Assembly (NCBI RefSeq): GCF_040807025.1
Contig: NC_090952.1
Coordinates: 16,489,068 to 16,553,067 of the forward strand
Source: Struthio camelus
Lineage: Eukaryota; Chordata; Aves; Struthioniformes; Struthionidae
Reading direction: 5' to 3'
Length of the DNA stretch: 64,000 nucleotides
The translations under genes and the position numbers were made by a program. Below, in pieces: positions 29,093 to 54,790 of the stretch. The notes under the pieces were generated by a model, which saw only the letters and a list, made by a program, of their open reading frames with translations, made no database searches and was not told where the DNA came from. Positions within the stretch are counted from its first letter, which is position 1. Each line of letters begins with the position of its first letter.

Positions 29093-29968
29093 TGATGATA
29101 CTAAACTGGGAGGAAAGACTAACACACCAGAAGACTGTCCTGCCATTCAGAGGGACCTGGACAGGCTGGAGAGGTGGGCGGAGAGGAACCTCCTGAAGTT
29201 CAACAAAGGCAAGTGCAAGGTCCTGCACCTAGGCAGGAATAATCCCATGCACCAGTACAGGCTGGGGGTTGACCTGCTGGAAACTAGCTCTGCCGAGAAG
29301 GACCTGGGAGTGCTGGTGGACAACAAGTTAAACATGAGCCAGCAGTGTGCCCTTGTGGCCAAGAAGGCCAATGGTCTCCTCGGGTGCATTAGGCAGAGTG
29401 TTGCCAGCAGGTGGAGGGAGGTGGATCCTGCCCCTCTGCTCAGCCCTGGTGAGGCCTCACCTGGAGTACTGTGTCCAGTTCTGGGCTCCCCAGGACAAGA
29501 GAGACATGGCACTCCTGGAGAGAGTCCAGCGGAGGGCTGCAAAGATGATTAGAGGGCTGGAGCATCTCTCCTAGGAAGAAAGACTGCAAGAGCTGGGCCT
29601 GTTCAGCCTGGAGAAGAGAAGACTGAGAGGCGATCTGATCAATGTGTATAAGTATCTGAAGGGGGAGTGTCAAGAGGATGAGGCCAGCCTCTTCTCCGTG
29701 GTGCCCAGCAACAGGACAAGAGGCAATGGGCAGAAACCAAACCACAGGAAGTTCCATCTGAACCTGAGGAAAAACTTCTTGACTGTGAGGGTGACAGAGC
29801 ACTGGAACAGGTTGCCCAGAGAGGTGGTGGAGTCTCCTTCGCTGGAGATATTCAAAAGCCGTCTGGATGTGATCCTGGGAAATATGCTCTAGAGGTCCCT
29901 GCTTGAGCAGGGACATTGGACTAGATGATCTCCAGAGGTCCCTTCCAACCTAAACGATTCTGCGATAT
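29093..29968 (+). repeat. CR1 LINE, 5'-truncated, 3' end intact
   Basis: The 3' part of an avian CR1 in sense orientation. It covers the last part of the ORF2 reverse-transcriptase region (GATGATACTAAACTGGGAGG, then a frame reading Y-R-L-G-V-D-L-L and [11 protein letters not shown]), a thumb/C-terminal segment, and the 3' UTR. It ends with ACTAGATGATCTCCAGAGGTC, CCTTCCAACC and an eroded octamer (CGATTCTGCGAT). The protein is broken: the frame shifts between the [12 protein letters not shown] segment and the following [11 protein letters not shown] segment, with a stop after the latter. 5' truncation is normal for CR1 insertion. Confidence 0.93.
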
Positions 29969-31632: not shown

Positions 31633-31822
31633 CTGGCGTCCCCTGCCCTCCCTGTCGCCGTGGCGTGATCCTGGCCAAAGCCAGGCTTGGGCCCAGCTGT
31701 GCTGGTGCTGGAGCGTGTGTGAGTGAGTGAGATGTGTGCCCCAAGGCCTGGGCGTGGGTGAGAGCAGCTCATTGAGAGGAAACACCACCCTCACACGGCG
31801 TGAGCTCTGCCTCCTCTTGACC

Positions 31823-31828
31823 TTTATT
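31823..31828 (-). terminator. Poly(A) signal, gene copy A
   Basis: AATAAA on the minus strand lies 395 bp beyond the stop codon at 32223. It is followed within 25-45 nt by a GT-rich stretch (GTGTGAGGGTGGTG), a proper downstream element. Cleavage is expected near 31805-31812. Confidence 0.6.
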
Positions 31829-32222
31829 GCCCCCGTTGCCTCCCCGTGCTGGTGGCTGTGTGCGAGGAAGGCGCCGGCCCGAGACGGAGGAGCGCGGTGC
31901 GGGCAGGCGGGGAGGAGGGCCGGTGCGGTGGCCTGGTGTCGGGGCAGGCTCTTGCTTTGTGGGCACGCGCTGGAGCAGGCGCTGGGGCTGGGCAGCGGCA
32001 GCAGGCTCTTTGCGTGTTGTCCGGCGGAGTCGTGGGTGTGCGAGCCGGTGAGTTTGTGGGCAAAGGGGCCGGTGCTTCGCCGGGGCTCTGCTGGGCTCTG
32101 GCTGACGTGTTTTGGAGGGCCAGCGTTGCTCTCGTTGTGCCTCAGCGGCTCTGATGCCCGTTTGCCAGAGAAGGGCCCCAAAGTCGGCGTCAGCGTGCCC
32201 AGCCGCCCGGCCTGCCGCCCGC

Positions 32223-34364
32223 TCAGGCCTCGTCGCTGGTGGGTGGTTCGGGTCCGTCTGAGCCAGGCGCGCCCGCGCTCGTGTTGTGCTCGTCCCGCTC
32301 TGTGGCGCTGAAAGGGAAGCAGTGGTTGCGTGCAGTAGCTTTCTGAAGGGAATATTGCCCAGCCGCAAAGGAAAGGGAGCGGGAGACTAGGTCTGTAAGC
32401 CCACAAAGAGGCCGCCAAAGCCCGCGTGCCCTTGAAAGGGGTGCAGGATAATCTGCCAAACGTGTCTTGTGCTTTTGCGGTGGTGCGTACCTGTCCAGAG
32501 AAGAGCTTCTGCTGAAGTCGTCCGAGTCCGGCGTAGGAGGCGGGGAGAGAAGAAAAAGGCCACCGTATGGACAGTCCTCGTCATCGTCCCAGGTGCTGCA
32601 GAGCTCTATGCTTGCTGTGCTCGGGGAAGCACACCTGGAGCAGGCACACTGCAGGCTCGTGGGAAGCTGTGAATAATGACGACGCGTCAGGGGAGGAGCG
32701 TTATGTGGGTCCGAGTTTGACGAGGGGAAGGTTGGGAGAGACTCGCTCGGCTGGAGCGTTTTGTGCCGGAGGCAGAAGAGAACTCACCTGCTGGCAGTGG
32801 CCAAGGGTCTGCAGAGCGGATGCCTCGACGTCGTTCTCTGGAGACCTAGGAACGGCAGAGAGAGGTGTTACTTGTCCTTTGGAGCGGAAGACTAGCAGCG
32901 CGTTGCCTTTCCGTAGGCTAAAGCCAAGCCCTTTGCGCGTCCTAGTGGGGAACGCGTCCTTTGTCCCGTTTGCCAAGGAGAGCGCCTCCGAGACTAGCAG
33001 GGCTGGGAGTCTTTGGTCAGGTATGGCGCCTGTAGAAGGGGTGAAAGTGCCAGCGTGGGAGCTTTCTGGGAAGCCTTGACAGTACAGGGAGGCTGAAGGG
33101 GAGCACTTTGTGCAGCTGCGTAAAAGCCGCTTTGCAGTTGTGCTGTTCCTTCTGCCTGGCCACGAGAGCGGCAGGGCAAGAGAGGACGCCAGCGAAGGGC
33201 GCTAGCTAGTTGGATTTAACGCGTTTAAGAGTCATGCCTGGAAGTCCTTCAGCATCTGTATTTGGGGGCCTGTTGAGGGCAGCTGTAGGCTTCCCGGCCG
33301 CTCCGAGGGGTGGCCGAGACCTGGACGGAGGTGAGCCCTTGGCTGTGGCTTTGTGCCCATGTTTGTGCTGTCCGCCAGGTGTGGAGCAGGAGGTTCAGCG
33401 CTCCCAGGGAGTTGCCCTGGGTGGAGCCTGACTCATGCTGCGAGTGGCTAAAGCTAGGGACCTGCCCACGTGGGGAGCTGCTTTGCTACCTATCCCTTGG
33501 GAAGGGAGGTGACTTTTCAAAGTTACTTTTCTTTGCCGGTCTTGAGTCGGCAGGCAAGCCAAACGCAGCACGTGAAGACGACCACAGCAGCGATGAGCGT
33601 CAGAGTGTTTGCGACGATGATGATGGCGGTGTGATTTAGAACGCCCGGGTCATCCTCTTCAAAGCCGCTGAGGAAGGTTACTGCAAAATAACGGGCAGAC
33701 AGGAGAGTTTATATGAAAGGTGCGTGCTGTGGTAGGTCAGAGAGAGGTGGAGGAGGAGGGGGAGGCTGAAGAAAGAAGAGCCCCAGCAGAGCGGCACGTG
33801 CTTTTCTGTTGTGGGGACATGATTTCCCAGCACGGGCAGGATGCCGTGCGGTGTAGGAGTTGAGGGCCGGAGCACTGGGGAAAGAGTGCCGTCCTTCTCC
33901 TCTCCCCTCTGTTCCTTGTGGTGGAGTTGCTCCTGCTGTCCTGGCGTGTCCTTGCTGCAGTGGGAAGAAGGGGGAAGGAGGAGCCTGTTGTCATCAGCAA
34001 GACGGAGAAGTGCCGGGAGGAGGGTTGGCAGGTGCTTTTGTGTCCCCAGGGAGGGCAGCATGGGAGGGCGGCGCAGGCGGCTTTGGAAAGCCGCGTCTGT
34101 GCCCGAGAGCTCCTTCTAAAGCGTGCTCGGCTGTGAAAGGGACGCGTCTGTTCTCGCGGTGCCGGCAGGTGCTCCTAGGCGCCAGCGGAAGCGCTGGCTT
34201 CCCCCTGGAAATTCCTCCTTAGCGAATGTTAGTTGGGGGAGAGGAGGTTTTACGTTGGAGCGCGTACCTTCAGACGACGCTGAAGCCTCTCTTTCCTCCG
34301 GGATGGGGAAGGCTCGTGCGAAAGCACAAAGCCAGAGGCACACCAAGGCAGAGCAGCGAGCCAT
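32223..34364 (-). CDS. Predicted five-exon type I membrane protein gene, copy A
   Basis: Exon model on the minus strand: 34268-34364, 33527-33680, 32788-32845, 32491-32603, 32223-32307 (507 nt, 168 aa). Splice junctions are GAAG/GTACGC, TTTTGCAG/TAACC, GAAAA/GTAACT, a C/T tract then CCTAG/GTCTCC, CAGCAG/GTGAGT, CATAGAG/CTCTG, ACAG/GTACGC and CCTTTCAG/CGCC; phases 1, 2, 0, 2 fit. The start has a strong context (GACATGG). Residues 1-18 form a signal peptide (MARCSALVCLWLCAFARA). The ectodomain (19-50) is short and acidic, with one sequon N48-H-T. The transmembrane helix is 51-76 (AIIIVANTLTLIAAVVVF then C/W-rich), followed by basic R-L-K-T-G-K (stop-transfer). The tail (77-168) is acidic and Ser/Pro-rich, with a D-D-D-E-D cluster, a PPPTPDSDD motif and SRSSSLD, which suits casein-kinase-type phosphorylation. 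I do not recognise the family. Intron 4 (183 nt) is stop-free and in frame. Confidence 0.68.
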
Positions 34365-34444
34365 GTCTGCTGGTACTGCCAAAGCCGGGTGCGCAAATGA
34401 GGCGCGCCGGGCAAGGGGGGCCCTGGGTTGCCCTCGCAGTGCTG

Positions 34445-34463
34445 TGACATCACAGATGGGCGG
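34445..34463 (-). promoter_or_regulatory. CRE-like motif and GC box upstream of gene copy A
   Basis: TGACATCA (34445-34452; TGATGTCA on the gene strand) is one base from the cAMP-response element TGACGTCA and could be a CpG-decayed version. GGGCGG (34458-34463) is an Sp-type GC box. They lie 81-99 nt upstream of the start codon, in CpG-rich DNA without a TATA box. This fits a compact TATA-less promoter. CREB/CREM-family control is an inference. Confidence 0.4.
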
Positions 34464-35641
34464 AGAGACCTTCTGAAGGTGTCATGAGATCCTCACAACG
34501 GGCAGCTGAGCGTGCGCGCGGCCTGCTGGCTCCTTGCACCTGGCAGTGAACAACTGCGCTGTCGGTGCCGCCCGCTCGCTCTTCTCCTCTGCGCTTGTCC
34601 TTAGTGCTACTTCGTGGAGAGATGGTCTTTCACGGAGCCAGGCAGGCTGGGCAGATGAGCCTGCGCAGGGCCTGCCTAAGACTGGGGCGGGTGCAGAGAG
34701 CGAGGCTAGAAGGCCATTGGGCTCGGTGCGTTTCACGGCAGTAAAACAAGAACCGCAGTCAAAGAATAGCCCTGTAAGGGAGCGTGTGAGTGGGTACCTC
34801 TCCTTTTTCCCCCGTGCCAGGCAAACGCTTCCCTTTCCCCAAAGAAACGGAGGCCGCGGTGACCCTCCCGTTCCTTCCTTCTCGAGCGGCCACGCTGCCC
34901 CGGCAAGGCAGTGACCCCCCGGCCGAGCCCGGCCCCTGCCCGCACAGAGGAGGCAGCAAAACAAGTCCGCCTGGAGCTTCCTGGGCTGTGAGGGAGCCTG
35001 TGGGGGAGCCTGTCCCCTGCTGACTCCCCGGGGAGTGCACAGCTGCATTCAGGGCCGCGTCTCTGGCAGGGGTGGGAAGCGAAGGGGAGCGTCTCCAGAG
35101 GGAATTGTAGCCTGTGGGGCTCGAGCGTGTCCCAGCATGCCTTCCGCCAGGGTGAAAAGGCCGTTTGGCTGTGCGGGCTGCTGCGCTCTCAGCACAGATT
35201 GCTAAGGGGAGTGTAAGTGAGAGCTATGTCAGGGGGCACCTTTACTGGTAGGAAGTCTTTGCACGTCAGGGGAGTCCAGTGGGGCCCTTTCCACCATCGC
35301 GTCCCTGTCTTGCGCCTGTGCGTGTGCTGTTGGCAGTCACGCGGGCTTTTGAGGAACAGTGCTGCGCGCACAGACAGTGCTTGCTGTGCCTCAAGAGAAA
35401 TGGCTGTGGCACAGCAGGAGAGAAAGGAGCAGCTCCAGAGCTGTGCCTGGGGACACAGGCGGATGCTGCTTGTGCCGTGGTGCGTCCAGGGGAGGGCTGA
35501 AGGGTGAGCACCTTGTCTCTGGAGCAGGGTGCAACTGAACTGGGATGTGGGTAAGGCACAATTTTGTGGGCGTGGTGACATTTGGGGTGCAGGAAGTGGG
35601 TGTAGATGCATTTATGGCCTCCTCCTGGGATGTGTGCTGCC

Positions 35642-35662
35642 TGGTGGTGGGCGGTGGTGGGT
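35642..35662 (+). other. G-tract cluster with quadruplex potential (copy A)
   Basis: The plus strand carries repeated GGTGGTGGG and GGCGGTGGTGGG tracts within a G/T-rich, C-poor stretch (about 35520-35790), between gene copies A and B. Several closely spaced G-runs could fold as a quadruplex. The same sequence lies 5530 bp away in copy B (41172-41192). Confidence 0.35.
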
Positions 35663-36047
35663 TATTTTTCATGTTGCGATGGCTGGAAGGAGGTCTTGTT
35701 GGTCTGAGCACTTGGAGCGCTGGTGTGGAGGCGGTGTCTAGTGAAGACACGGTCAGCAGTTGGTTTGTTGCTTGTGGAGTTGCTGCTCGCATGAGGTGAG
35801 ATGCTTGAGGGCAGAGAGGTGTTCTTGCAGACTGTGAGCGCAGGGCTTGGGCTTTTCGGCTGCTTTGTGTCACAAGCAGATACCCTGAGTCTCTCAGTTG
35901 CCCTCGGGTTGCAACGCAGCGTCAGTAGCAGTGTTGTCTGGGGAGCAGCTTGTGTGAGGCCTGGCTGCCCCAAGGAAGAGTGTGCGGAGCTGCTGGAGCA
36001 GAGCTGCGCACAAAGGTTGTGCTGGAAGGCATCGAGCCCTGGAGTAG

Positions 36048-36165
36048 TAGAGGTTGGAAGGGCCACCTGGAGGCCACCGAGTGCAGTGGCCTGCCCAAAG
36101 CAGGTCTACTTAGACCGGCTGGCCTCGTGCAGTCGAGTCTCCAACTGCCTGAGTCTGGGAAAAGC
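36048..36165 (-). repeat. Diverged CR1 3' end at right edge of copy A
   Basis: The plus strand reads AGAGGTTGGAAGGGCCACCT and GCCCAAAGCAGGTCTACTTAGA, then GTGCAGTCGAGTCTCCAAC. This matches, with many changes, the reverse complement of an avian CR1 3' end. It is antisense and missing the terminal octamers. It ends about 20 bp before the A/B homology breaks off. Confidence 0.6.
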
Positions 36166-36185
36166 TGGCGTTCCTTCTTCACGGC

Positions 36186-37171
36186 ATTGCAGTCGCTGGA
36201 CCGCGTGGAGACTAACAGAGGTGGAGCGTGCGCTTTCGGCTCTTTGATGGTGTGATGTGCGAGTTGGTTCAGGGAGCAACGAAGCCGCGACCTCCTTGTG
36301 GAGAGGCCCCGGTGGCGCGGACAAGCTCTGCGGCTTGGTCCTCCTTTTCTCCAAGGGGCCGGGCTCCCAAAGCATCTGTGCGAGTCACGTAAGAAATGTG
36401 ACCCTTTTTGCCAGGAGATGCAGGAGCAGGGGCGCTGTGTGGGTTCAGCAGCTATTTTCGAAGCCCTGTGCAGGGGTCTTTGGTTATTCTGCCACCGTGT
36501 GGCTGAGAAAAGGCCGTGGGCCGAGGTTTCTGCAGTTGGGGATGAGAGCGCGATTCTCCGAGCAGGACCAGCCCAGCACGTCCCGGGGGATCTCGCAAGG
36601 GCTGGCCGTGAGGTTTGGGCCTTGGCACAGCCTGCTGTCAGGGAAAGGGGCTTTGCAGCACTGGCCCCGCGGGCACGGTGGCGGAGTGCTGGGAAGGGAC
36701 CCTGGGCTTGGCTTGGCGGAGCTGGGGCCCCTTTGGCAGCCGTGTGCGTGGGGGAGGGCACGGTGAGCGGCAGAGGAGGGCTGTCAGCCTGCCCGAGAGC
36801 TGCGCGCCACCGGGGCGCAGGCGGTGGCTGTGGCAGTGCGGTGGGCTTTGCTGCCCAGGCCGCGGGCCAGAGCACCCGCTGCCTTCGGCCCCAGAGCCAT
36901 GGCGGGGCTCTGGCCATGCCCCGCGCGGCTGCTGCCGAGGGGCCCTGAGGCTTGGCTGCCGGGACGCTCTCCAGCCCCGCGCTAGAAAGCCCTGGGAGGC
37001 GAGTGCTGCTCGCACGGCCGCGGGAGGTGCGGAGCACGGAAAGGCAGCCAGCTGTTGGCAGGGTCACGGTGCTTCCCCGCAATGGCAGGTGGGCACCGAG
37101 TGCAGCGTGCCTGGGAGCCAGTGCGAAAGCCCAGGGAGAAAGCGCCGGGCTGCCACGGTGTGGGGCTGTGA
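36186..37171. other. Unique GC-rich spacer between duplicate copies
   Basis: This 986-bp CpG-rich sequence is present once. It is not found after copy B, where a degenerate third-copy fragment follows directly. Long frames here come from the low stop-codon density of GC-rich DNA and lack splice or domain support. It lies between the poly(A) end of gene copy B and the promoter of gene copy A. It may be the remainder of a 5.5-kb ancestral unit, deleted beyond copy B. Confidence 0.5.
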
Positions 37172-37355
37172 CGGGCATCCCCTGCCCTCCCTGTCGCCGT
37201 GGCGTGATCCTGGCCAAAGCCAGGCTTGGGCCCAGCTGTGCTGGAGCGTGTGTGAGTGAGTGAGATGTGTGCCCCAAGGCCTGGGCGTGGGTGAGAGCAG
37301 CTCATTGAGAGGAAACACCACCCTCACACGGCGTGAGCTCTGCCTCCTCTTGACC

Positions 37356-37361
37356 TTTATT
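37356..37361 (-). terminator. Poly(A) signal, gene copy B
   Basis: AATAAA on the minus strand, in the same context and at the same distance from the stop codon as in copy A, with the same GT-rich downstream element. Confidence 0.6.
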
Positions 37362-37755
37362 GCCCCCGTTGCCTCCCCGTGCTGGTGGCTGTGTGCGAGG
37401 AAGGCGCCGGCCCGAGACGGAGGAGCGCGGTGCGGGCAGGCGGGGAGGAGGGCCGGTGCGGTGGCCTGGTGTCGGGGCAGGCTCTTGCTTTGCGGGCACG
37501 CGCTGGAGCAGGCGCTGGGGCTGGGCAGCGGCAGCAGGCTCTTTGCGTGTTGTCCGGCGGAGTCGTGGGTGTGCGAGCCGGTGAGTTTGTGGGCAAAGGG
37601 GCCGGTGCTTCGCCGGGGCTCTGCTGGGCTCAGGCTGACGTGTTTTGGAGGGCCAGCGTTGCTCTCGTTGTGCCTCAGCGGCTCTGATGCCCGTTTGCCA
37701 GAGAAGGGCCCCAAAGTCGGCGTCAGCGTGCCCAGCCGCCCGGCCTGCCGCCCGC

Positions 37756-39894
37756 TCAGGCCTCGTCGCTGGTGGGTGGTTCGGGTCCGTCTGAGCCAGG
37801 CGCGCCCGCGCTCGTGTTGTGCTCGTCCCGCTCTGTGGCGCTGAAAGGGAAGCAGTGGTTGCGTGCAGTAGCTTTCTGAAGGGAATATTGCCCAGCCGCA
37901 AAGGAAAGGGAGCGGGAGACTAGGTCTGTAAGCCCACAAAGAGGCCGCCAAAGCCCGCGTGCCCTTGAAAGGGGTGCAGGATAATCTGCCAAACGTGTCT
38001 TGTGCTTTTGCGGTGGTGCGTACCTGTCCAGAGAAGAGCTTCTGCTGAAGTCGTCCGAGTCCGGCGTAGGAGGCGGGGAGAGAAGAAAAAGGCCACCGTA
38101 TGGACAGTCCTCGTCATCGTCCCAGGTGCTGCAGAGCTCTATGCTTGCTGTGCTCGGGGAAGCACACCTGGAGCAGGCACACTGCAGGCTCGTGGGAAGC
38201 TGTGAATAATGACGACGCGTCAGGGGAGGAGCGTTATGTGGGTCCGAGTTTGACGAGGGGAAGGTTGGGAGGGACTCGCTCGGCTGGAGCGTTTTGTGCC
38301 GGAGGCAGAAGAGAACTCACCTGCTGGCAGTGGCCAAGGGTCTGCAGAGCGGATGCCTCGACGTCGTTCTCTGGAGACCTAGGAACGGCAGAGAGAGGTG
38401 TTACTTGTCCTTTGGAGCGGAAGACTAGCAGCACGTTGCCTTTCCGTAGGCTAAAGCCAAGCCCTTTGCGCGTCCTAGTGGGGAACGCGTCCTTTGTCCC
38501 GTTTGCCAAGGAGAGCGTCTCCGAGACTAGCAGGGCTGGGAGTCTTTGGTCAGGTATGGCGCCTGTAGAAGGGGTGAAAGTGCCAGCGTGGGAGCTTTCT
38601 GGGAAGCCTTGACAGTACAGGGAGGCTGAAGGGGAGCACTTTGTGCAGCTGCGTAAAAGCCGCTTTGCAGTTGTGCTGTTCCTTCTGCCTGGCCACGAGA
38701 GCGGCAGGGCAAGAGAGGACGCCAGCGAAGGGCGCTAGCTAGTTGGATTTAACGCGTTTAAGAGTCATGCCTGGAAGTCCTTCAGCATCTGTATTTGGGG
38801 GCCTGTTGAGGGCAGCTGTAGGCTTCCCGGCCGCTCCGAGGGGTGGCCGAGACCTGGACGGAGGTGAGCCCTTGGCTGTGGCTTTGTGCCCATGTTTGTG
38901 CTGTCCGCCAGGTGTGGAGCAGGAGGTTCAGCGCTCCCAGGGAGTTGCCCTGGGTGGAGCCTGACTCATGCTGCGAGTGGCTAAAGCTAGGGACCTGCCC
39001 ACGTGGGGAGCTGCTTTGCTACCTATCCCTTGGGAAGGGAGGTGACTTTTCAAAGTTACTTTTCTTTGCCGGTCTTGAGTCGGCAGGCAAGCCAAACGCA
39101 GCACGTGAAGACGACCACAGCAGCGATGAGCGTCAGAGTGTTTGCGACGATGATGATGGCGGTGTGATTTAGAACGCCCGGGTCATCCTCTTCAAAGCCG
39201 CTGAGGAAGGTTACTGCAAAATAACGGGCAGACAGGAGAGTTTATATGAAAGGTGCGTGCTGTGGTAGGTCAGAGAGAGGAGGAGGAGGGGGAGGCTGAA
39301 GAAAGAAGAGCCCCAGCAGAGCGGCACGTGCTTTTCTGTTGTGGGGACATGATTTCCCAGCACGGGCAGGATGCCGTGCGGTGTAGGAGTTGAGGGCCGG
39401 AGCACTGGGGAAAGAGTGCCGTCCTTCTCCTCTCCCCTCTGTTCCTTGTGGTGGAGTTGCTCCTGCTGTCCTGGCGTGTCCTTGCTGCAGTGGGAAGAAG
39501 GGGGAAGGAGGAGCTTGTTGTCATCAGCAAGACGGAGAAGTGCCGGGAGGAGGGTTGGCAGGTGCTTTTGTGTCCCCAGGGAGGGCAGCATGGGAGGGCG
39601 GCGCAGGCGGCTTTGGAAAGCCGCGTCTGTGCCCGAGAGCTCCTTCTAAAGCGTGCTCGGCTGTGAAAGGGACGCGTCTGTTCTCGCGGTGCCGGCAGGT
39701 GCTCCTAGGCGCCAGCGGAAGCGCTGGCTTCCCCCTGGAAATTCCTCCTTAGCGAATGTTAGTTGGGGGAGAGGAGGTTTTACGTTGGAGCGCGTACCTT
39801 CAGACGACGCTGAAGCCTCTCTTTCCTCCGGGATGGGGAAGGCTCGTGCGAAAGCACAAAGCCAGAGGCACACCAAGGCAGAGCAGCGAGCCAT
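37756..39894 (-). CDS. Predicted five-exon type I membrane protein gene, copy B
   Basis: Exon model on the minus strand: 39798-39894, 39060-39213, 38321-38378, 38024-38136, 37756-37840. Every splice site, phase, start context and stop is identical to copy A. None of the nine substitutions or two indels between copies falls in an exon, so the predicted 168-aa protein is identical: signal peptide, acidic glycosylatable ectodomain, one membrane helix, acidic Ser/Pro-rich tail. The 3-bp indel lies in intron 1. It has the same orientation as copy A and lies upstream of it in transcription order, so the two form a head-to-tail pair. Both copies look intact, so expression of both is plausible. The family is not recognised. 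Confidence 0.68.
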
Positions 39895-39974
39895 GTCTGC
39901 TGGTACTGCCAAAGCCGGGTGCGCAAATGAGGCGCGCCGGGCAAGGGGGGCCCTGGGTTGCCCTCGCAGTGCTG

Positions 39975-39993
39975 TGACATCACAGATGGGCGG
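39975..39993 (-). promoter_or_regulatory. CRE-like motif and GC box upstream of gene copy B
   Basis: TGACATCA (39975-39982) and GGGCGG (39988-39993) sit at the same distances from the copy B start codon (39894) as in copy A. The flanking promoter sequence is identical, so the two genes should share regulation unless distant elements differ. Confidence 0.4.
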
Positions 39994-41577
39994 AGAGACC
40001 TTCTGAAGGTGTCATGAGATCCTCACAACGGGCAGCTGAGCGTGCGCGCGGCCTGCTGGCTCCTTGCACCTGGCAGTGAACAACTGCGCTGTCGGTGCCG
40101 CCCGCTCGCTCTTCTCCTCTGCGCTTGTCCTTAGTGCTACTTCGTGGAGAGATGGTCTTTCACGGAGCCAGGCAGGCTGGGCAGATGAGCCTGCGCAGGG
40201 CCTGCCTAAGACTGGGGCGGGTGCAGAGAGCGAGGCTAGAAGGCCATTGGGCTCGGTGCGTTTCACGGCAGTAAAACAAGAACCGCAGTCAAAGAATAGC
40301 CCTGTAAGGGAGCGTGTGAGTGGGTACCTCTCCTTTTTCCCCCGTGCCAGGCAAACGCTTCCCTTTCCCCAAAGAAACGGAGGCCGCGGTGACCCTCCCG
40401 TTCCTTCCTTCTCGAGCGGCCACGCTGCCCCGGCAAGGCAGTGACCCCCCGGCCGAGCCCGGCCCCTGCCCGCACAGAGGAGGCAGCAAAACAAGTCCGC
40501 CTGGAGCTTCCTGGGCTGTGAGGGAGCCTGTGGGGGAGCCTGTCCCCTGCTGACTCCCCGGGGAGTGCACAGCTGCATTCAGGGCCGCGTCTCTGGCAGG
40601 GGTGGGAAGCGAAGGGGAGCGTCTCCAGAGGGAATTGTAGCCTGTGGGGCTCGAGCGTGTCCCAGCATGCCTTCCGCCAGGGTGAAAAGGCCGCTTGGCT
40701 GTGCGGGCTGCTGCGCTCTCAGCACAGATTGCTAAGGGGAGTGTAAGTGAGAGCTATGTCGGGGGGCACCTTTACTGGTAGGAAGTCTTTGCACGTCAGG
40801 GGAGTCCAGTGGGGCCCTTTCCACCATCGCGTCCCTGTCTTGCGCCTGTGCGTGTGCTGTTGGCAGTCACGCGGGCTTTTGAGGAACAGTGCTGCGCGCA
40901 CAGACAGTGCTTGCTGTGCCTCAAGAGAAATGGCTGTGGCACAGCAGGAGAGAAAGGAGCAGCTCCAGAGCTGTGCCTGGGGACACAGGCGGATGCTGCT
41001 TCTGCCGTGGTGCGTCCAGGGGAGGGCTGAAGGGTGAGCACCTTGTCTCTGGAGCAGGGTGCAACTGAACTGGGATGTGGGTAAGGCACAATTTTGTGGG
41101 CGTGGTGACATTTGGGGTGCAGGAAGTGGGTGTAGATGCATTTATGGCCTCCTCCTGGGATGTGTGCTGCCTGGTGGTGGGCGGTGGTGGGTTATTTTTC
41201 ATGTTGCGATGGCTGGAAGGAGGTCTTGTTGGTCTGAGCACTTGGAGCGCTGGTGTGGAGGCGGTGTCTAGTGAAGACACGGTCAGCAGTTGGTTTGTTG
41301 CTTGTGGAGTTGCTGCTCGCATGAGGTGAGATGCTTGAGGGCAGAGAGGTGTTCTTGCAGACTGTGAGCGCAGGGCTTGGGCTTTTCGGCTGCTTTGTGT
41401 CACAAGCAGATACCCTGAGTCTCTCAGTTGCCCTCGGGTTGCAACGCAGCGTCAGTAGCAGTGTTGTCTGGGGAGCAGCTTGTGTGAGGCCTGGCTGCCC
41501 CAAGGAAGAGTGTGCGGAGCTGCTGGAGCAGAGCTGCGCACAAAGGTTGTGCTGGAAGGCATCGAGCCCTGGAGTAG

Positions 41578-41695
41578 TAGAGGTTGGAAGGGCCACCTGG
41601 AGGCCACCGAGTGCAGTGGCCTGCCCAAAGCAGGTCTACTTAGACCGGCTGGCCTCGTGCAGTCGAGTCTCCAACTGCCTGAGTCTGGGAAAAGC
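41578..41695 (-). repeat. Diverged CR1 3' end at right edge of copy B
   Basis: The same antisense CR1 scrap as at 36048-36165, duplicated with the unit and identical to it by eye. It predates the duplication. Confidence 0.6.
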
Positions 41696-41721
41696 TGGCG
41701 TTCCTTCTTCACGGCTTTGTG

Positions 41722-41835
41722 TTCCCGATTTGCCCAATCTCTCCTTGTGCTGGTGGTTGTTTGTGGCTGTGTGTGCGATGAAGGTGCTAGCCCGAGATGG
41801 AGGAGCACAGTGCGGGCAGGCTGGGAGAAGGGACA
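41722..41835 (-). pseudogene. Decayed fragment of a third unit (3' UTR region)
   Basis: About 110 bp directly after copy B aligns with the gene's 3' UTR/poly(A) region (copy A about 31820-31930). It shares CTGGTGG(C/T)TGT, GGCTGTGTG, GAAGG(C/T)GC, CCCGAGA(C/T)GGAGGAGC and GTGCGGGCAGGC. Most differences are C to T or G to A at CpG sites (GCGCGG to GCACAG, GAGACGG to GAGATGG), the signature of methylation-driven decay. It also has a small insertion (TTGTTTGTGG). The poly(A) signal is lost: the TTTATT equivalent reads GATTTG. This is the remnant of an older tandem unit whose remaining part is absent. Confidence 0.7.
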
Positions 41836-44524
41836 ATGTTAGATCCAGGTGGCAGGGGACTGCTTTCATGTACACAGTCCTGAACATAGGGCTACATACT
41901 GTGGCTGGGATTCCCTCCTACCATCTGCCTAGCCACAGGCAGCAGTTGATAGGCAATGCTGTTTTTTTTTTCCTGAAATTGGATGAGGACACCACCTCTC
42001 CCTTCCAGCCCTGTCCTACCCCCAGTTTTGGGGTGAAGCTTTTTTCCTTTGCTGTTCTGAGAAGTGCCAAGCCCAAGGACAGTTCTAGGAGCAGGAGGCA
42101 GTGGCCAAACTATTCTCATCCTTATTAAACCCTCTCCTCTTGCCATTCTGGTTCATCAGAATACCTCTTTTAGTGCAGTTCTGATGTCAGCTCTGCATTG
42201 CTGAAGGTGGAAGGTAGCTTAAGTCATTTACCCCGTAGCGCACCTTCTGCCAAAAACAGCCTTGTCTCCTCCCAACCAGGCTCCAGGAGGCTGTTCAGGT
42301 AGGGCAGGAGTTGCCTGGTGGATCATACTTGTACTGCAGCTTCCAATGTCACATGCCAGGACACAACTGGTAAAGGAATAACAACAACTACAACAAAAGA
42401 CTCATGAAAACTAATCCCTTGAGGTTATTATCTGCAGGCAAGAGTTGGAAGCTGATCTGCAACTTTTGCTATGGTACTGCTGCCTTGCACAACCTGGGTA
42501 AGCGTGCCTTCAGGAATATGTTCCCAGAAAAGCAGATATGTGTATTCAGGGCAAAGCAAGCAGGTGGAAGCCCCTAGGCTCCATCTTAGCTCTGAGCAGC
42601 TCTCCTGACTGTTTCCCAGTAGTTGAAGCTAAACAACTTGTGTCTCTTCAGTTTTTGTGCAGCTGGCCAGGAGTGCAGGCTGCTTGGCAGAAGCCACTGT
42701 CTCTGGAAGTTCCTCTTTTCCAAGCAGACCACCATCCTGCTAATGCAGCATGTGCAATTAAAAAAAAAAAATGCAGTCGTTTTTTTCTGAGGCCTTGTGT
42801 TCCTCAGCCAGCCACCCCTGTTTGGTGGCGGTTCAGGGCCCAGATCATGGGCAGTGGAGATGCATGCTGGCTTTGGGCGTGGGTGCAGCCTATCCAGAAG
42901 CGTGGGAAGTTGCAGTGGGAGCTGTGTTAGAAACTAAGTTTGAGCCTGAAGTATCCTCTTGCTCCAGGGATCTAAGCAAGATCAAAGGTGAACAAGATAA
43001 GGTGTGGGGAGGGCACTGCTGTTGCGAGTGATAAAAGCTTTTCAGCTCCGCCTGCCTGCATTCCTGGCATTCAAACGGTACCTGTCCCTGAGGACGAGGG
43101 TGAAGCACCAGTTGCCACAGTCCTTTGGCAAGTTTTAGAAGGAAGCTTCAGTTTTAGGTTTCCGGGGTTGGGGTGGGGGGCAGGCAGGCACAGTAGTGGT
43201 ACAGGAGAATGGGTGGATATGAGTGAACACATACCTGACTTAGTAGACAGCTGAATCCCAGCACAGGTAAAAGGTACCTGGTTCTCCTATAGGAAAAGAG
43301 AGCTCCCTGATTACACTTCCCAGATAGATGCACTAAAAGCACAGCATAATTCATTTAGGGAGCAAAGCTGCCCTGTACTCCACTTTTCTCCACAGCCAGC
43401 ACACGAAGGGCTCAGTCCATTTCATACTACTTGGCTGTTTTGAGGGCCAGACTGGGAGGCTACATCATCCATTTGTGGGACCAGAAGGGAGCCACAAGTT
43501 GGCAATTTTAGGGAGAGGGAACTGCAGGGAGGCACTCAGACCCCCCCATGGTGGGGTTCTGTTTTCAAGCTCGAGAAGTCCCTAAGGTGGAATGTAGGAG
43601 ACTGCGTCACATGCCTGGGTCTCTGGAGCAATAGTTGCTTTTGCCCCCACCCTTGCAAGAAAACATAAGCATATAGGGTCTTCAGTTTCCAATATTTGTT
43701 TATATTAAAACAATGATATTAATAGCAATTTATGGCAGCAGTGTTTTACGGCATTATAAATGGAACATATTAACATAAGTTGCTGGAGTTGTACTTTCAG
43801 CACCTTTGTAAAAGAAGGAAAGAGCAATGTGGTACAAGAAAAGGATTAGTAAAAGGGGAGGGAGAGGAGGAAATGGAGAGAGGACCCTCCCTCCCCAGCT
43901 GAGATATACTGAAAGGAGAGAAGTGATGAAGCTGGGAAATGAATGTCAACTACCACCTCTCAGCTCTAGCAGCGCAGTAATGTGCTTTCCCCAAGAAACA
44001 GGGTATGAGGCGGGATGTTAGTTGTCCTTTTGTGTACTGAGAGCTGCGGATTATTTCTGCCATGAACTACATACACCAAGTGGTATATTGTCTTAGTTGT
44101 GGCTGTCTTCGAATCATGTTCCCAGGAGCAGAATAGTGCAGCACATCATTGCTAATGCGTGCTTCATTCTGTTTCCTGGAGGGACCACTCCACAGTGAGG
44201 GGTATGCAGGCTCCTGCCTTCTCCTTGCTACACTGGCTGGCGCAGCCCCCAGATGCCTCCAAACAGCTGGTCAAAACATGGGCAAGAGGTGAGATAGCCA
44301 GTCTTCAACAGCAACAAACACTCAGAAGTCCAAATGCCTGTTTTTCGGGTAGTGCAGAGACTGCAACTCAGGACAGATCTAGAGCCTGGCCTTTTCTCCC
44401 CTGGGTGGCTGGCAGACCCTTGTGGGTCTTTCTGAAATACTTTGCCCAGGTGTGCCTAGCAACATAGCAGGACTGTATGCTCCAGGTGCTTTCACTCCAT
44501 GCACAGTGCAGGCAGTCAAGCAAA
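41836..44524. other. Non-coding DNA right of the duplicated block
   Basis: GC content falls back within about 150 bp of the block edge. No exon, RNA gene or classifiable repeat was recognised. Short A- and G-runs are present (for example near 42760 and 43170). Confidence 0.5.
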
Positions 44525-44531
44525 GCGATGA

Positions 44532-45005
44532 GTGATTGTTGTGAGTGACTCCATGCTGCGGGGGGCCGAGGCACCTATCTGCTGACCTGACCTCTTGTCT
44601 AGAGAGGTTTGCTGCCTGCCAGGGGCTCAAATAAGAGACCATGCATCAGACTATTACCCTCTGCTGCTCTTCCATGTGGGCACTAATGACACAAAAGGCA
44701 AATTGGATACCATCAAAGAGGACTTCAGAGCTCTGGGAATGGTGGTCAAGGGTCTGGGAGCCCAGGTCGTTTTCTCCTCAATCTTGCCTGTGAGAGGGAA
44801 GGACAGGAGGAGGAGTAGACGAGTTTTCCAAGTTAACAACTGGCTATGCTGCTCGTGTTGGCAGCAGGGTTTTGGTTTCTATGACCATGGAACCCTGTTT
44901 GAAGATCAACAGCTGATGGAGAGAGATGGGATCCACCTCACAAAGTGGGGCACGTGTGTCTTTGGCAACAGGTTGGCCAGCCTGGTAAGGAAGGCTTTAA
45001 ACTAG
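44532..45005 (+). pseudogene. CR1 ORF1 remnant (SGNH esterase-like)
   Basis: This reads as the C-terminal esterase-like domain of CR1 ORF1. The GDS block appears as V-V-S-D-S-M-L-R-G, with the glycine replaced by serine. Next come REVCCLPGAQIRD, the block HVGTNDT, and near the end the catalytic-type D-G-I-H-L-T motif, then LASLVRKALN and a stop. An in-frame stop lies near 44582, between A-P-I-C and P-D-L-L. The product was an RNA-binding/esterase-type accessory protein; this copy is dead. Confidence 0.8.
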
Positions 45006-45160
45006 GAAAGACGGGGGAAGGGGAATGGTATAGTGACACGGTACTCAGTACAACACCACTCAAGTCAGGATGCCTCCAGCGGGTGCATGCAGCCAGGGGA
45101 GACAGCATAGGACATTGCTATGGAGGATCCTCTTGAACCTCTCCTGAGAAGCTTATATGT

Positions 45161-46857
45161 TTGATTGACTCTCTGAAATGCCTGTACACCAATGCACGCA
45201 GCATGGGGAATAAGCAGGAAGAGTTAGAGATCTGTGTGCGGTGGCAGGGCCATGATCTCATTGCAGTTACAGAGACATGGTGGGATAGCTCACATGACTG
45301 GAATGCTGTCATGGATGGCTATGTGCTTTTTAGGAAAGGCAGGCCAGGAAGGCGAGGTGGTGGAGTTGCTCTTTATGTGAAGGAGCAACTAGAATGTGTG
45401 GAGCTCTGCCTAAGGGTGGATCAAGAGCAAGTTGAGAGCCTGTGGTTAGAGATTAAAGGGCAGGCTAACATGGGTGACACTGTTGTGGGGGTTTACTACA
45501 GGCCACCTGATCAAGAAGAGGAAGTCGATGAGGCTTTCTACAGACAGCTGGAAGTAGCCTCACGATCACAGGCCCTGGTTCTCATGGAGGACTTCAACCA
45601 CCCTGACATCTGCTGGGAAGAGAGCACAGCTAGGCACAAACAGTCAAAGAGGTTCCTGCAAAGCATTGATGATAATTTCTTGACTCAGGTGGTGGAGACG
45701 CCAACGAGGAGAGATGCAATGCTAGACCTTGTACTAACGAACAAAGAAGGTCTAGTTGGAGAGGTGAAGGTTGGGGGCAGCCTTGGCTGCAGTGACCATG
45801 AGATGGAAGAGTTCAGGATCCTACGAGGAGGAAGCAGGGCAATAAGTAGGATCACAACCCTGGACTTCAGGAGAGCTAACTTTGGCGTCTTCAGGGACCT
45901 ACTTAGGGGAATCTCATGGGGTAGGGCCCTAGAAGGAAGGGGGGGTCCAGGAGAGCTGGTTAATATTCAAGCATCACTTCCTCCAGGCTCAAGAGCAGTG
46001 CATCCCTCTGAGTAAGAAGTCCAGCAAAGTGGGCACTCTGAGTAAGAAGTCCAGCAAAGCAGGCAGGAGACCTGCATGGATGAGCAAGGAACTCCTGACA
46101 AAACTCAAACAGAAGAAGGAAGTGTACAGAATGTGGAAAAGGGGACAGGCCACTTGAGAGGAACATAGGGACATTGTCAGAGTATGCAGGGATGCGACAA
46201 GGAAGGCTAAGGCCCATTTGGAATTAAATCTGGCAAAGGATGTCAAGAACAACAAGAAGGGGTTCTTCAAATACGTCAATAGCAAAAGGAAGACTAGGGA
46301 AAATGTGGGCCTGCTGTTGAATGGGGTGGGTGCCCTGGTAACGAAGGATACAGAGAAGGCAGAGTTGCTGAATGCCTTCTTTGCTTCCGTCTTCACTGCT
46401 AAGGCCAGTCCTCAGGAATTCCAGGCCTTGGAGACAAGAGAGGAAGGCTGGAGAAAGGAAGACTCTCCCTTGGTTGAGGAGGATCAGGTTAGAGATCTTT
46501 TGTGCAAACTTGACATCCACAAATCCGTGGGCCCTGATGGGATGCACCACGAGTGCTGAGGGAGCTGGTGGATGTTATTGCTAGGCCACTCCCCATCATC
46601 TTTGAAAGGACATGGAGAACAGGAGAGGTGCCTGAGGGCTGGAAGAAAGCCAATGTCACTCCAGTCTTCCAAAAGGGCAAGAAGGAGGAGCCAGGAAAGT
46701 ACAGGCCTGTCAGCCTCACCTCCATCCCTGGAAAGGTGATGGAACAGCTCATCCTGGAGGTCATCACTAAGCGTATGGAGGACAAGAAGGTGATCAGGAG
46801 TAGTCAGCATGGATTCACCAAAGGGAAATCATGCTTGACCAATCTGATAGCCTTCAG
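45161..46857 (+). pseudogene. CR1 ORF2 remnant (endonuclease + partial reverse transcriptase)
   Basis: The first block (to 46015) is an apurinic-type endonuclease: TNARSMGNKQEELE, AVTETWWD, GGGVALYVK, VGVYYRPP, EDFNHPDICWE (the usual GDFN reads EDFN) and the C-terminal S-D-H-E-M motif. The frame then breaks in a region with a short tandem repeat (two CTCTGAGTAAGAAGTCCAGC units at 46000-46060). It continues as GFFKYVNSKRKTRENVG and PDGMH with an in-frame TGA near 46156. A one-base deletion near 46545 shifts the frame again, and the reverse-transcriptase fingers region (YRPVSLTSIPGKVMEQ, QHGFTKGKSCLTNL) follows. The polymerase active site is absent. Non-functional. Confidence 0.85.
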
Positions 46858-49800
46858 AGGGAGGCAGAAGAAGAGATTTCCAGATGGCTTGACCCAAAGC
46901 ATCACCCCTTACCATTGGTAAAACACTGATGGCCAAGTGAACAAGTGCTATGAGAAAAAGCTTTTCTTTACAGTGAAGGACACTGAGAAGACTCCCCTTC
47001 CCATGTATGTGCATACATTCCCTGAACTCTCCCTCCCTGAACTCCAACACAAGGGGCTTGGGATCTGCTGCTGCACTTGATTCCTCAGCATTTGATCTGG
47101 CCCACCGTGAGTGTGTAGTTGTCCACTGACTCATGCTGCGCTGCTTTGTTGGCTAGCCTGTTACAGGCAGCTCTGCGTCTGGTGTCTGCTTCATTTTCCT
47201 TCTCTCAAGTGGATGTTCTTGTCCTAGTGGGACGAGAAAAGGCTGTGTCAATTGTTCCCAACAGAGGAAGTAAGCAGAAGCATTTGGCATTTTGGAGCAA
47301 AGGGATTCCACATCTTGGCCTGAGCATGCTAGTTAACAGTGGTCCAGCAAGGAAAGTTATGCCGCAGCCATTGCCTCCTTTGGGAGAAAAGACTCCAGTT
47401 GCTCACGGCAGCTAAGTAGCAGCGGCTTTTTGAACTGAGGCAACAGAGAGGGGCAGAAACTGTCAGGTAACCCCAGGAAGAAGTATTGGGTCAACTGGTG
47501 AAAACAGCTAGGACACAGCACCTACTTCTTGCTTGAGCTTGCTTTACCTGGCATTGTATGGAAGCTGGCGTTCTCTGATATCTGGCACGGTAGTGATGCC
47601 GCACTGTTGGTATCTGCCATCCTTGATGGCACAGACACTCCCCAGCTCTCCTAGGACTCTTCCATTCCTACACAAAGGATAAGGAGCACTCCTTCCACTG
47701 TGTGCACACCTCCTCCCTTTACTGCCAGACAGGGGCTCTCCCCTATACTGATTTCAGATGCCCTGTGCAAATCTTGACAAAGCTCCCCAAAAGCATTGTT
47801 TTGCTGCTGTATATCTATTACTTTCATCATGAATTACCCAATACTGCACACAAAGAAATGCAGAGATGAGGAATGGGGGGAAGAAGTAACTTTAGGAGAC
47901 CCGAAGGCTGTTTTCCATTGCCTTGCCCAAACTTAATTACTGTAACAGGTTAGTCAGGAGTGCAAGATTTACATGGACAAGAGCTGAACTCCTGGATGCG
48001 GAAGCTAGACTAAGCAAATATATGGGATTTTTTTTTTTTTTTTAAGCAGGCCATTAAGTAAAGTGCATGTCAAGAAGCACAGAGTGACAACAAGCAACAC
48101 CAGGAATGAGGTAGGATTTTGTTCTGTGTTTTACCTGTCACAACACCAATACTAATTGACTTAAGACTAGGTCAGCTACTGAGAAATCTAAGTCAGTTTG
48201 TCTCCTGACCCTGTGACTTTTTCAGTCGTGCTAATTAGAGCAACAAGCCCTGTAAAATGTTAGTTACAAATCTTCCCAGGAAGCACTTTTTGTTTGTTAA
48301 GCTGCTCTAACTCACTCAGTCCTGCCCCACACATGCAGCTCCCCACACCTTTCCTATAATCCGAGATCTTCTCTACTCAGAAGGCAATTTTGCATGCTAT
48401 AAAAGACAGGCCTGGCTGTCTCCCAGTCCAAGTAGTCCTGCTTGTGCATGAAAGTGAAAAGAGATGAGAGGCTGGGCTGAGAGTGCCCATCTTCTATCCA
48501 AAACTGAACAGTATTCGCTGAACAGGCTTCCAGGGAGGTAGTCCTGCAGGAACTAACAGAGCAGTCCATCTTCTCCCTGTGTGTGAAGACAGAGCAGTGC
48601 TAAACAGTAGGACTGGTATGTGCTCCCCACAGAGAAACTCACATTTCCTGTGCCCCACTCAGAAGTGAAGCCTGCAAGAGGTAGGCTAAAAGATACAAGC
48701 GTCTGGGAAGCATTTATACTTACTGGCTGGATGCTAGCTTTAGAAATTCTTCATCCATGTGTTGGAAGGTGTCCAAAAGTTTCCTCTTCAGTTTTCTCCA
48801 CACTGATACCTTGTCTGTCAGAAGGAGAAAATAGTGACTATGCTCCAGCTGAAACGGCTCTGACGTATCCCAGGCCCCCTTTAATTCATCCAGTGATACA
48901 CCATGTGCAGCCTGATGGTGCAGCTCTCATTCCCTGTGGGATAGAGCTGTGAGCCTAGGATGTGCCCTGGACCCACAGGGAGTTTTTTACATCCCCCCCT
49001 CCCCCCCCAACAGGTTCAGAAAGAAGTGCCTATTTTAATTCTTTTTCTCAAGAAGTTGCCCTGCTGAGATTTACATTCAGGAGATGGGGCAGCACATCTC
49101 AACACTTGAACAATGATTCACAACTGGCTAGTGATACCCTTGTTCCAAGAGGCTTTCACCTTATTAATACCCCTCTGCCACCACTCACTGCACAGTGGCT
49201 ATATACACAGGCCTGAAAGGAGTAAGCAAGGTAGAGCTGCATCCGAACAAACATATTACCCTGGCCAACAGCCACAATTGCAAGGCATAAAAGCCACAGT
49301 TGCAAGGCATAAAAGCTGATGTCTGTCTGACACATACCTATTCCCCTCATCTCACCTCTTGGACGTTTCTTAGTAGAATGAGCATACCAGTTCTAATAGC
49401 CTCTCTCTCCTGAATCAGAGGAGAAGAAACACTAATTGCACAAAGAACCGTAAGTCTCTATGCTTAAACATTTAAGTTTTTACATGTACAAGCACTAAAA
49501 GCTTCTTCATAACTTCTCCACTCCAGAAAGTGAAGGACAGAAAAGAGGTTGCGCACTATGACTTAGCTTAAAAGCAGCTAAACCTTTAACTCCAAGGGCA
49601 CTGCAACTCCAGTCTCTCCCCAGCATTACACAGACATCAGTCCAACTGATCCTCAAGCTCTTCACAGGCGGAGCACTTATTACCACTGTGCTACAGACAA
49701 GATGCTAGACTACTCAGCAAATGAAGATCTCAGAACTGTTAATTTAAAGGCTAAAAATATAGCAAAACGTAGCATTAGGATGACACTTGATGATGTTCCT

Positions 49801-54062: not shown

Positions 54063-54790
54063 CAGAGCTTCATACACCAAGTGCATCCCCATAGCCACAG
54101 CTCAGTTTCAAAACCTCAACTGCATCCCCCCAGCCACAGCTCAGAGCTTCATAATCACAGAATCACAGAATCACAGAATCATTTAGGTTGGATGGGACCT
54201 CTGGAGATCATCTAGTCCAACCTCCCTGTTCAAGCAGGGTCACCTAGAGCATATTTCCCAGGATCACATCCAGACGGCTTTTGAATATCTCCAGCGAAGG
54301 AGACTCCACCACCTCTCTGGGCAACCTGTTCCAATCTCAGTCACCCTCACAGTCAAGAAGTTTTTCCTCAGGTTCAGATGGAACTTCCTGTGGTTCAGTT
54401 TCTGCCCATTGCCTCTTGTCCTGTCGCTGGGCACCACGGAGAAGAGATTGGCCTCATCCTCTTGACACTCCCCCTTCAGATACTTGTACACGTTGATGAG
54501 ATCCCCTCTCAGTCTTCTCTTCTCCAGGCTGAACAGGCCCAGCTGTAACCCCAACTGCATCCTCCCAGATACAGCTCAGCACTTCATAACCCCCAACTGC
54601 AACTCCCAGCCACAGCTTAGAGCTTTATAACCCCAACTGCATCCCCCCAGCCACAGCTCAGGGCTTCATAACCCCCAACTGCATCCCCCCAGCCACAGCT
54701 CAGGGCTTCATAACCCCAACTGCATCCCCCCAGCCACAGCTCAGAGCTTCATAACCCCAACTGCACGCCCCCCAGCCACAGCTCAGTCCA
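54063..54790. repeat. 42-bp-unit minisatellite, interrupted by a CR1
   Basis: Units of 41-42 bp have the pattern CCACAGCTCAGAGCTTCATA then ACCCCAACTGCATCCCCCCAG. About two diverged units lie at 54063-54153 and about six at 54545-54790. The last three or four are nearly identical, with mainly GGG versus GAG and C-run length differences. A minus-strand CR1 fills 54154-54544. Unit-to-unit similarity is highest at the right end, suggesting recent slippage there. Confidence 0.9.
54154..54544 (-). repeat. CR1 LINE 3' end nested in the minisatellite
   Basis: The plus strand begins with three AATCACAG-type octamers (the CR1 3' terminus in reverse), then GGTTGGATGGGACCTCTGG and ATCATCTAGTCCAACC, and proceeds through the 3' UTR to CTGAACAGGCCCAGCT. 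It is about 390 bp, 5'-truncated, and well preserved, hence relatively young. It splits one minisatellite unit between CTTCATAA and TAACCCC, with at most a TAA duplication, as usual for CR1 integration. Confidence 0.95.

Follow-up and report, generated by a model that had tools for sequence, protein, structure and literature searches.

The transmembrane adaptors of the LAT, PAG, LIME and SIT type display several cytosolic tyrosines in an SH2-binding (YxN) context. The ostrich protein described here shares their layout of a short extracellular stub, a single helix and a disordered tail, but it has no tyrosine-based SH2 motifs and no sequence similarity to them was found. Its gene lies in a 64-kb window (the whole stretch of DNA analysed, C11:16489068-16553067) of C11, which comprises 29,763,035 bases in an assembly of 1.45 Gb. 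The evidence below indicates that this is probably a functional multi-copy gene, found so far in palaeognaths only, that encodes a type I membrane protein and likely tethered adaptor.

Copy 1 of the gene is read on the minus strand from a start codon at 34364 to a stop at 32223. Its 570-nt coding sequence is divided over five exons and four introns and translates into a product of 189 aa, MARCSALVCLWLCAFARAFPIPEERE...TSDEA, rather than the 168 aa given by the first-pass annotation, which had also counted five junctions where four are found. All four introns are of the GT-AG type, with phases 1/2/0/2. The five-exon minus-strand gene with matching phases that had been proposed thus stands, upheld by these junctions, by an intact 570-nt frame in both window copies and by an emu homologue. 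The features of the locus are as follows.

34445..34452, minus strand: CRE-like octamer TGATGTCA, 81 bases 5' of the ATG, a promoter candidate read from the sequence
34268..34364, minus strand: exon 1 of copy 1, with the ATG in GACATGG, the signal peptide MARCSALVCLWLCAFARA followed by FPIP, and the donor AAG/gtacgc
33527..33680, minus strand: exon 2 of copy 1, with the acidic end of the ectodomain, the membrane helix and the stop-transfer RLKTGKEK
32788..32845, minus strand: exon 3 of copy 1, SPENDVEASALQTLGHCQQ, with SPExDxEASA next to junction 2, a motif retained in emu
32491..32666, minus strand: exon 4 of copy 1, with the Cys cluster SLQCACSRCASPS, PYGGL, PPPTP and SRSSSLD
32223..32307, minus strand: exon 5 of copy 1, with the C-terminus and the TGA stop
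31828-31823, minus strand: putative poly(A) signal AATAAA of copy 1, followed by a GT-rich stretch, likewise recognised from its letters
39798..39894, minus strand: exon 1 of copy 2, as in copy 1
39060..39213, minus strand: exon 2 of copy 2, as in copy 1
38321..38378, minus strand: exon 3 of copy 2, as in copy 1
38024..38199, minus strand: exon 4 of copy 2, as in copy 1
37756..37840, minus strand: exon 5 of copy 2, as in copy 1
31635..36189, no strand: duplication arm 1, 4.55 kb, 99.56% identical to arm 2
37174..41719, no strand: duplication arm 2, paired with arm 1
41763..41857, minus strand: diverged remnant, 84% identical over 70 columns and 76% over 88, matching the stretch that directly precedes the poly(A) signal

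Copy 2 (39894-37756, minus strand) is identical to copy 1 in all 570 nt. The tandem duplication claimed at first reading is therefore borne out by two identical coding sequences in 4.55-kb arms that are 99.6% identical, and the expected poly(A) signal was also located. The arms differ by 11 substitutions and 2 indels, none of which falls in the five exons; since the exons occupy about one eighth of the duplicated length, the absence of all 13 events from them is unremarkable and says little on selection. The stretch between the arms (36190-37173) is single in the window, yet forms part of the repeat unit of a distant array. The diverged remnant adjoins the right edge of the duplication and probably derives from an older gene copy. 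A third copy in the window was considered and rejected, as this pre-poly(A) stretch is the sole older remnant found, and a tblastn search of the window with the product returned nothing beyond the two copies at E < 0.1.

The duplication extends well beyond the two copies first recognised. The DNA of exon 2 occurs at least seven times in the ostrich genome, always on C11, with two occurrences in the window and five at 17.071-17.094 Mb, and each of the seven genomic copies found has an intact coding sequence and canonical splice sites. The five distant copies, analysed in the interval 17.05-17.12 Mb, form an array (C11:17069380-17094935) with a period of 5,532 bp, 0.54 Mb from the window. A count of the repeat unit gave six copies, and the fifth gene copy of the array is truncated about 625 bases upstream of its ATG. 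The array is flanked by a direct repeat of 342 columns, 98% identical (L009:9037-9377 and L012:4945-5286), possibly reflecting an insertion with a long target-site duplication.

All five array copies differ from the window copies by the replacements C110R and S158A. Both window copies and the emu protein carry C110 and S158, so the window copies probably keep the ancestral residues while those of the array are derived. These are the coding differences between the ostrich clusters, two nonsynonymous and no synonymous, and over 31635-34989 the clusters are separated by four fixed substitutions (including the two amino-acid changes) and one 4-bp indel. Variants at 32099, 32900 and the 33746-33748 indel are common to both clusters, as exchange between window and array would leave. 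We infer that tandem duplication first multiplied the gene at the window locus, where the emu-like residues persist, and that a block was later transferred over 0.54 Mb to the array site and expanded there to five copies.

Relatives were sought among about 5.8 billion proteins with the single sequence, a two-species profile and a helix-to-tail profile aimed at shorter models, for which 200, 5451 and 506 candidates, respectively, were scored; distant relatives could be missed because candidates must share exact five-residue words. The single-sequence and two-species profile searches gave two matches at E ≤ 10, an emu and an ostrich protein both labelled 'uncharacterized', and the helix-to-tail profile recovered the emu protein alone. 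Within the reach of these protein searches, the gene accordingly appears lineage-specific, as had been suggested.

The emu protein, LOC135326747 (P0002; listed on one 166-kb contig), has 190 aa and matches at E 1.3e-54 with 57% identity. It aligns from first methionine to last residue with three one-residue gaps and 108 of 188 positions identical. Identities by exon are 21/32, 25/52, 10/19, 38/57 and 14/28, the highest fraction being that of exon 4, and the residues flanking each of the four junctions are common to the two species. The emu counterpart of exon 1 reads MAGCSALVCLLLC..VPIPGEREAS. The two proteins are alike in length, signal peptide, membrane helix, Cys cluster, PYGGL, PPTP and the SRSSS tail, but the emu protein has no N-glycosylation sequon, is less acidic in its C-terminal part and carries four tyrosines in its last 119 residues (two at the membrane edge), against one in ostrich.

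The ostrich record is a 221-aa 'uncharacterized protein' (P0001) from C11, matched at E 2.4e-98. Starting at exon 2, its sequence is that of the array copies, R110 and A158 included, which places its template in the array. The N-terminal 64 residues of the record are taken from intron 1 of the present model (33994-33802 in window copy 1), are joined onward by a non-canonical GC donor and have no match in the emu protein; as the latter possesses the signal-peptide exon instead, the first exon of the ostrich record is likely mis-modelled. Thus the proposal that earlier annotation had missed the gene holds in part: the ostrich record matches the array copies with a different first exon, but 'uncharacterized' records exist in both species and the gene is for that reason not absent from databases. 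Both records look like automated predictions. The further proposal that the gene was hidden by its GC content appears weak: the region has 60-66% GC in 2-kb windows over 32-42 kb, the gene has a GC3 of 68%, and both ostrich and emu have it assembled and in part annotated.

The protein could be assigned to no family, in agreement with the first reading, since no Pfam family scored above cut-off and PDB sequences gave nothing at E ≤ 10. In Pfam, neither the 189-aa ostrich product (E ≤ 10) nor the 221-aa record had a match, and the INV_N hit of the emu protein was rejected as a chance match (13.6 bits against a cut-off of 27.8). Rfam gave nothing at gathering scores in the 64-kb window. No paper naming LOC135326747 was found, nor, in titles and abstract openings, any on this gene; the same held for the literature on palaeognath orphan or lineage-specific genes. 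The copy number, the corrected 5' exon and the ancestral and derived clusters appear to be new. A nameless prediction thereby becomes a defined multi-copy family: its 5' exon is improved, its topology is supported, its clusters are told apart as ancestral and derived, and a relative in emu is known. The case also illustrates that reading raw sequence can recover a first exon that the existing ostrich model appears to miss.

The N-terminus of the product is hydrophobic and ends in an AxA cleavage site (ARA/F); the cleavage between MARCSALVCLWLCAFARA and FPIP was placed by eye. Hydropathy reaches its maximum of 2.50 at residues 52-70 in ostrich and of 2.57 at residues 53-71 in emu, and is followed in both by RLKTxKE. 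An AlphaFold model of the emu protein from two sequences has a mean pLDDT of 55.7, with its sole well-supported stretch in a helix spanning residues 49-85, while most of the outer tail falls below a pLDDT of 50, as disorder would give. The signal peptide, membrane helix and stop-transfer basic residues described at first reading are thus corroborated by the hydropathy maxima, the emu match and the helix of the emu model. Together these data argue strongly for a type I topology, in which the signal peptide is cleaved off, about 32 residues stay outside and a single helix is followed by basic residues on the inner side, and equally for a cytosolic tail of about 113 residues that is largely disordered.

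Sequons in ostrich are NHT at residue 48, abutting the membrane, and NTS at residue 170 in the cytosolic tail. The single ectodomain sequon noted initially is therefore present, but a second one lies in the tail and emu has none; because it abuts the membrane and is absent in emu, the ectodomain sequon is not a core feature. Motifs found in the tails of both species comprise SPExDxEASA, a His/Cys cluster with SLQCxCSRCASPS, PYGGL, PPTP and SRSSSxDSAT. Among the tail motifs originally singled out, PPTP and SRSSSxD are thus common to emu, whereas D-D-D-E-D and the DSDD that follows PPPTP are not. C110 of the Cys cluster is absent from five of the seven ostrich copies.

The tail would act as a membrane-tethered adaptor or scaffold that docks cytosolic partners. 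The conserved His and Cys residues (H100, C101, C110, C112, C115 and C126) may carry lipid or metal, and the conserved SP, PPTP and RSSS sites may be phosphorylated. A membrane-tethered adaptor with a lipidated or metal-bound, phosphorylated tail is tentatively put forward as a plausible account. The combination of fast protein change and amplification suggests a conflict-driven role in germ line or immunity, and membrane proteins that are confined to one lineage, amplified and quick to evolve are strong candidates for a part in fertilisation or immunity. It is possible, if somewhat doubtful, that the gene represents a palaeognath-specific orphan family under positive selection, born or retained in the clade, amplified in ostrich with exchange between clusters, engaged in a germ-line or immune conflict and unmatched elsewhere among birds.

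A special case of the preferred reading with another role is a sperm or spermatid surface protein shaped by sexual conflict, encoded by a dosage-amplified testis ampliconic gene. Fast evolution, tandem amplification and CRE-like elements are common in testis genes, and all three are encountered here, the last at 81 bases before the ATG. A CRE-like octamer is nevertheless weak evidence, and we regard this role as rather unlikely.

The rate of protein change also bears on whether the locus is a relic, or a young transcribed locus near neutrality, in which recent copying keeps the ostrich frame intact and the emu record is a prediction laid over decay. An unconstrained frame was simulated without indels in 400 runs per distance. 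Protein identity fell to 67% at 0.2 substitutions per site and to 56% at 0.3, and the share of runs without a stop was 9% and 6.5%, respectively. The observed identity of 108/188 lies near the 56% that the simulation gives at the larger distance and, with the two nonsynonymous against zero synonymous changes between the ostrich clusters and the weak coding log-odds of the model (8.4 bits), is in line with near neutrality. No figure for the neutral ostrich-emu distance was found, including in passages of PMC10343094 and PMC6735826. On the other hand, length is kept (189 against 190 aa, with three one-residue gaps), conservation is uneven with its peak in exon 4 (38/57), and a stop-free frame is infrequent in the simulation at 0.3 substitutions per site, with the qualification that the emu record, as a predicted gene model, is biased towards open frames. 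Decay is on balance unlikely. Identity of 57% over a complete frame points to a reading frame that was kept while its amino acids changed fast, under relaxed or positive selection rather than strong conservation.

A diverged avian version of an immune transmembrane adaptor of the LAT type is very improbable. The short ectodomain, single helix and long disordered tail agree with such an origin, in layout only and on a low-confidence model, but the one tyrosine of the ostrich tail lies in PYGGL, where it is followed by GGL and not by a YxN motif, and the ostrich product has no Pfam match at E ≤ 10 while emu has only the chance INV_N hit.

Within the 4,555-base arm, minus-strand splice sites were scored with an approximate vertebrate PWM. 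The four donors rank 3, 6, 1 and 2 among 125 GTs and the four acceptors 9, 4, 29 and 8 among 327 AGs, all close to the top apart from the rank of 29, which belongs to the acceptor at the fourth exon. A simple gene finder based on dynamic programming, which uses splice and codon tables and was blind to the proposed model, was run over 31635-34989. Its best minus-strand gene reproduces exons 1-3 exactly from the same ATG with a score of 18.2, reached by one of 100 dinucleotide shuffles. The finder picks another acceptor for the fourth exon; the resulting alternative exon 4 (32581-32634, minus strand) scores higher ab initio and would yield a 120-aa isoform without most of the tail. As the ab initio signal does not support exons 4-5, these rest on the homologues. 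That splice-like sites happen to line up into these exons by chance can be practically dismissed: the full model, at 6.1, does no better than the best genes from shuffled sequence, whose mean is 5.1, but exons 1-3 are recovered blind and the whole-length emu match (E 1.3e-54) already refutes it.

Other elements accompany the gene. An inverted pair of 376-bp repeats (29591-29966 and 54170-54544, 94% identical), by eye presumably CR1-like, adjoins at one end a 41-bp tandem repeat of 5.8 copies (54546-54786). ARAGORN's single tRNA call (54650-54744) lies inside this tandem repeat, has a four-base anticodon and is doubtful. A LINE remnant at 44586-46921 (plus strand), which by eye we take to be CR1-like, contains an endonuclease at 45137-46012 (Exo_endo_phos, E 1.5e-09), followed by a frame at 46158-46556 with no Pfam match. 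NUP62-like FG-repeat exons lie to the left of the array (L008:5414-5706 and L008:3681-4075, minus strand), together with exons that we take to be DNAAF6/PIH1D3, which Pfam did not confirm. Beyond the right edge of the window, at a distance of about 43-66 kb, lie exons of a GABA-A receptor beta subunit in three pieces. Neighbours of the GABA-A beta, NUP62-like and DNAAF6-like kind presumably lie on chicken 4p and human X rather than on the Z.
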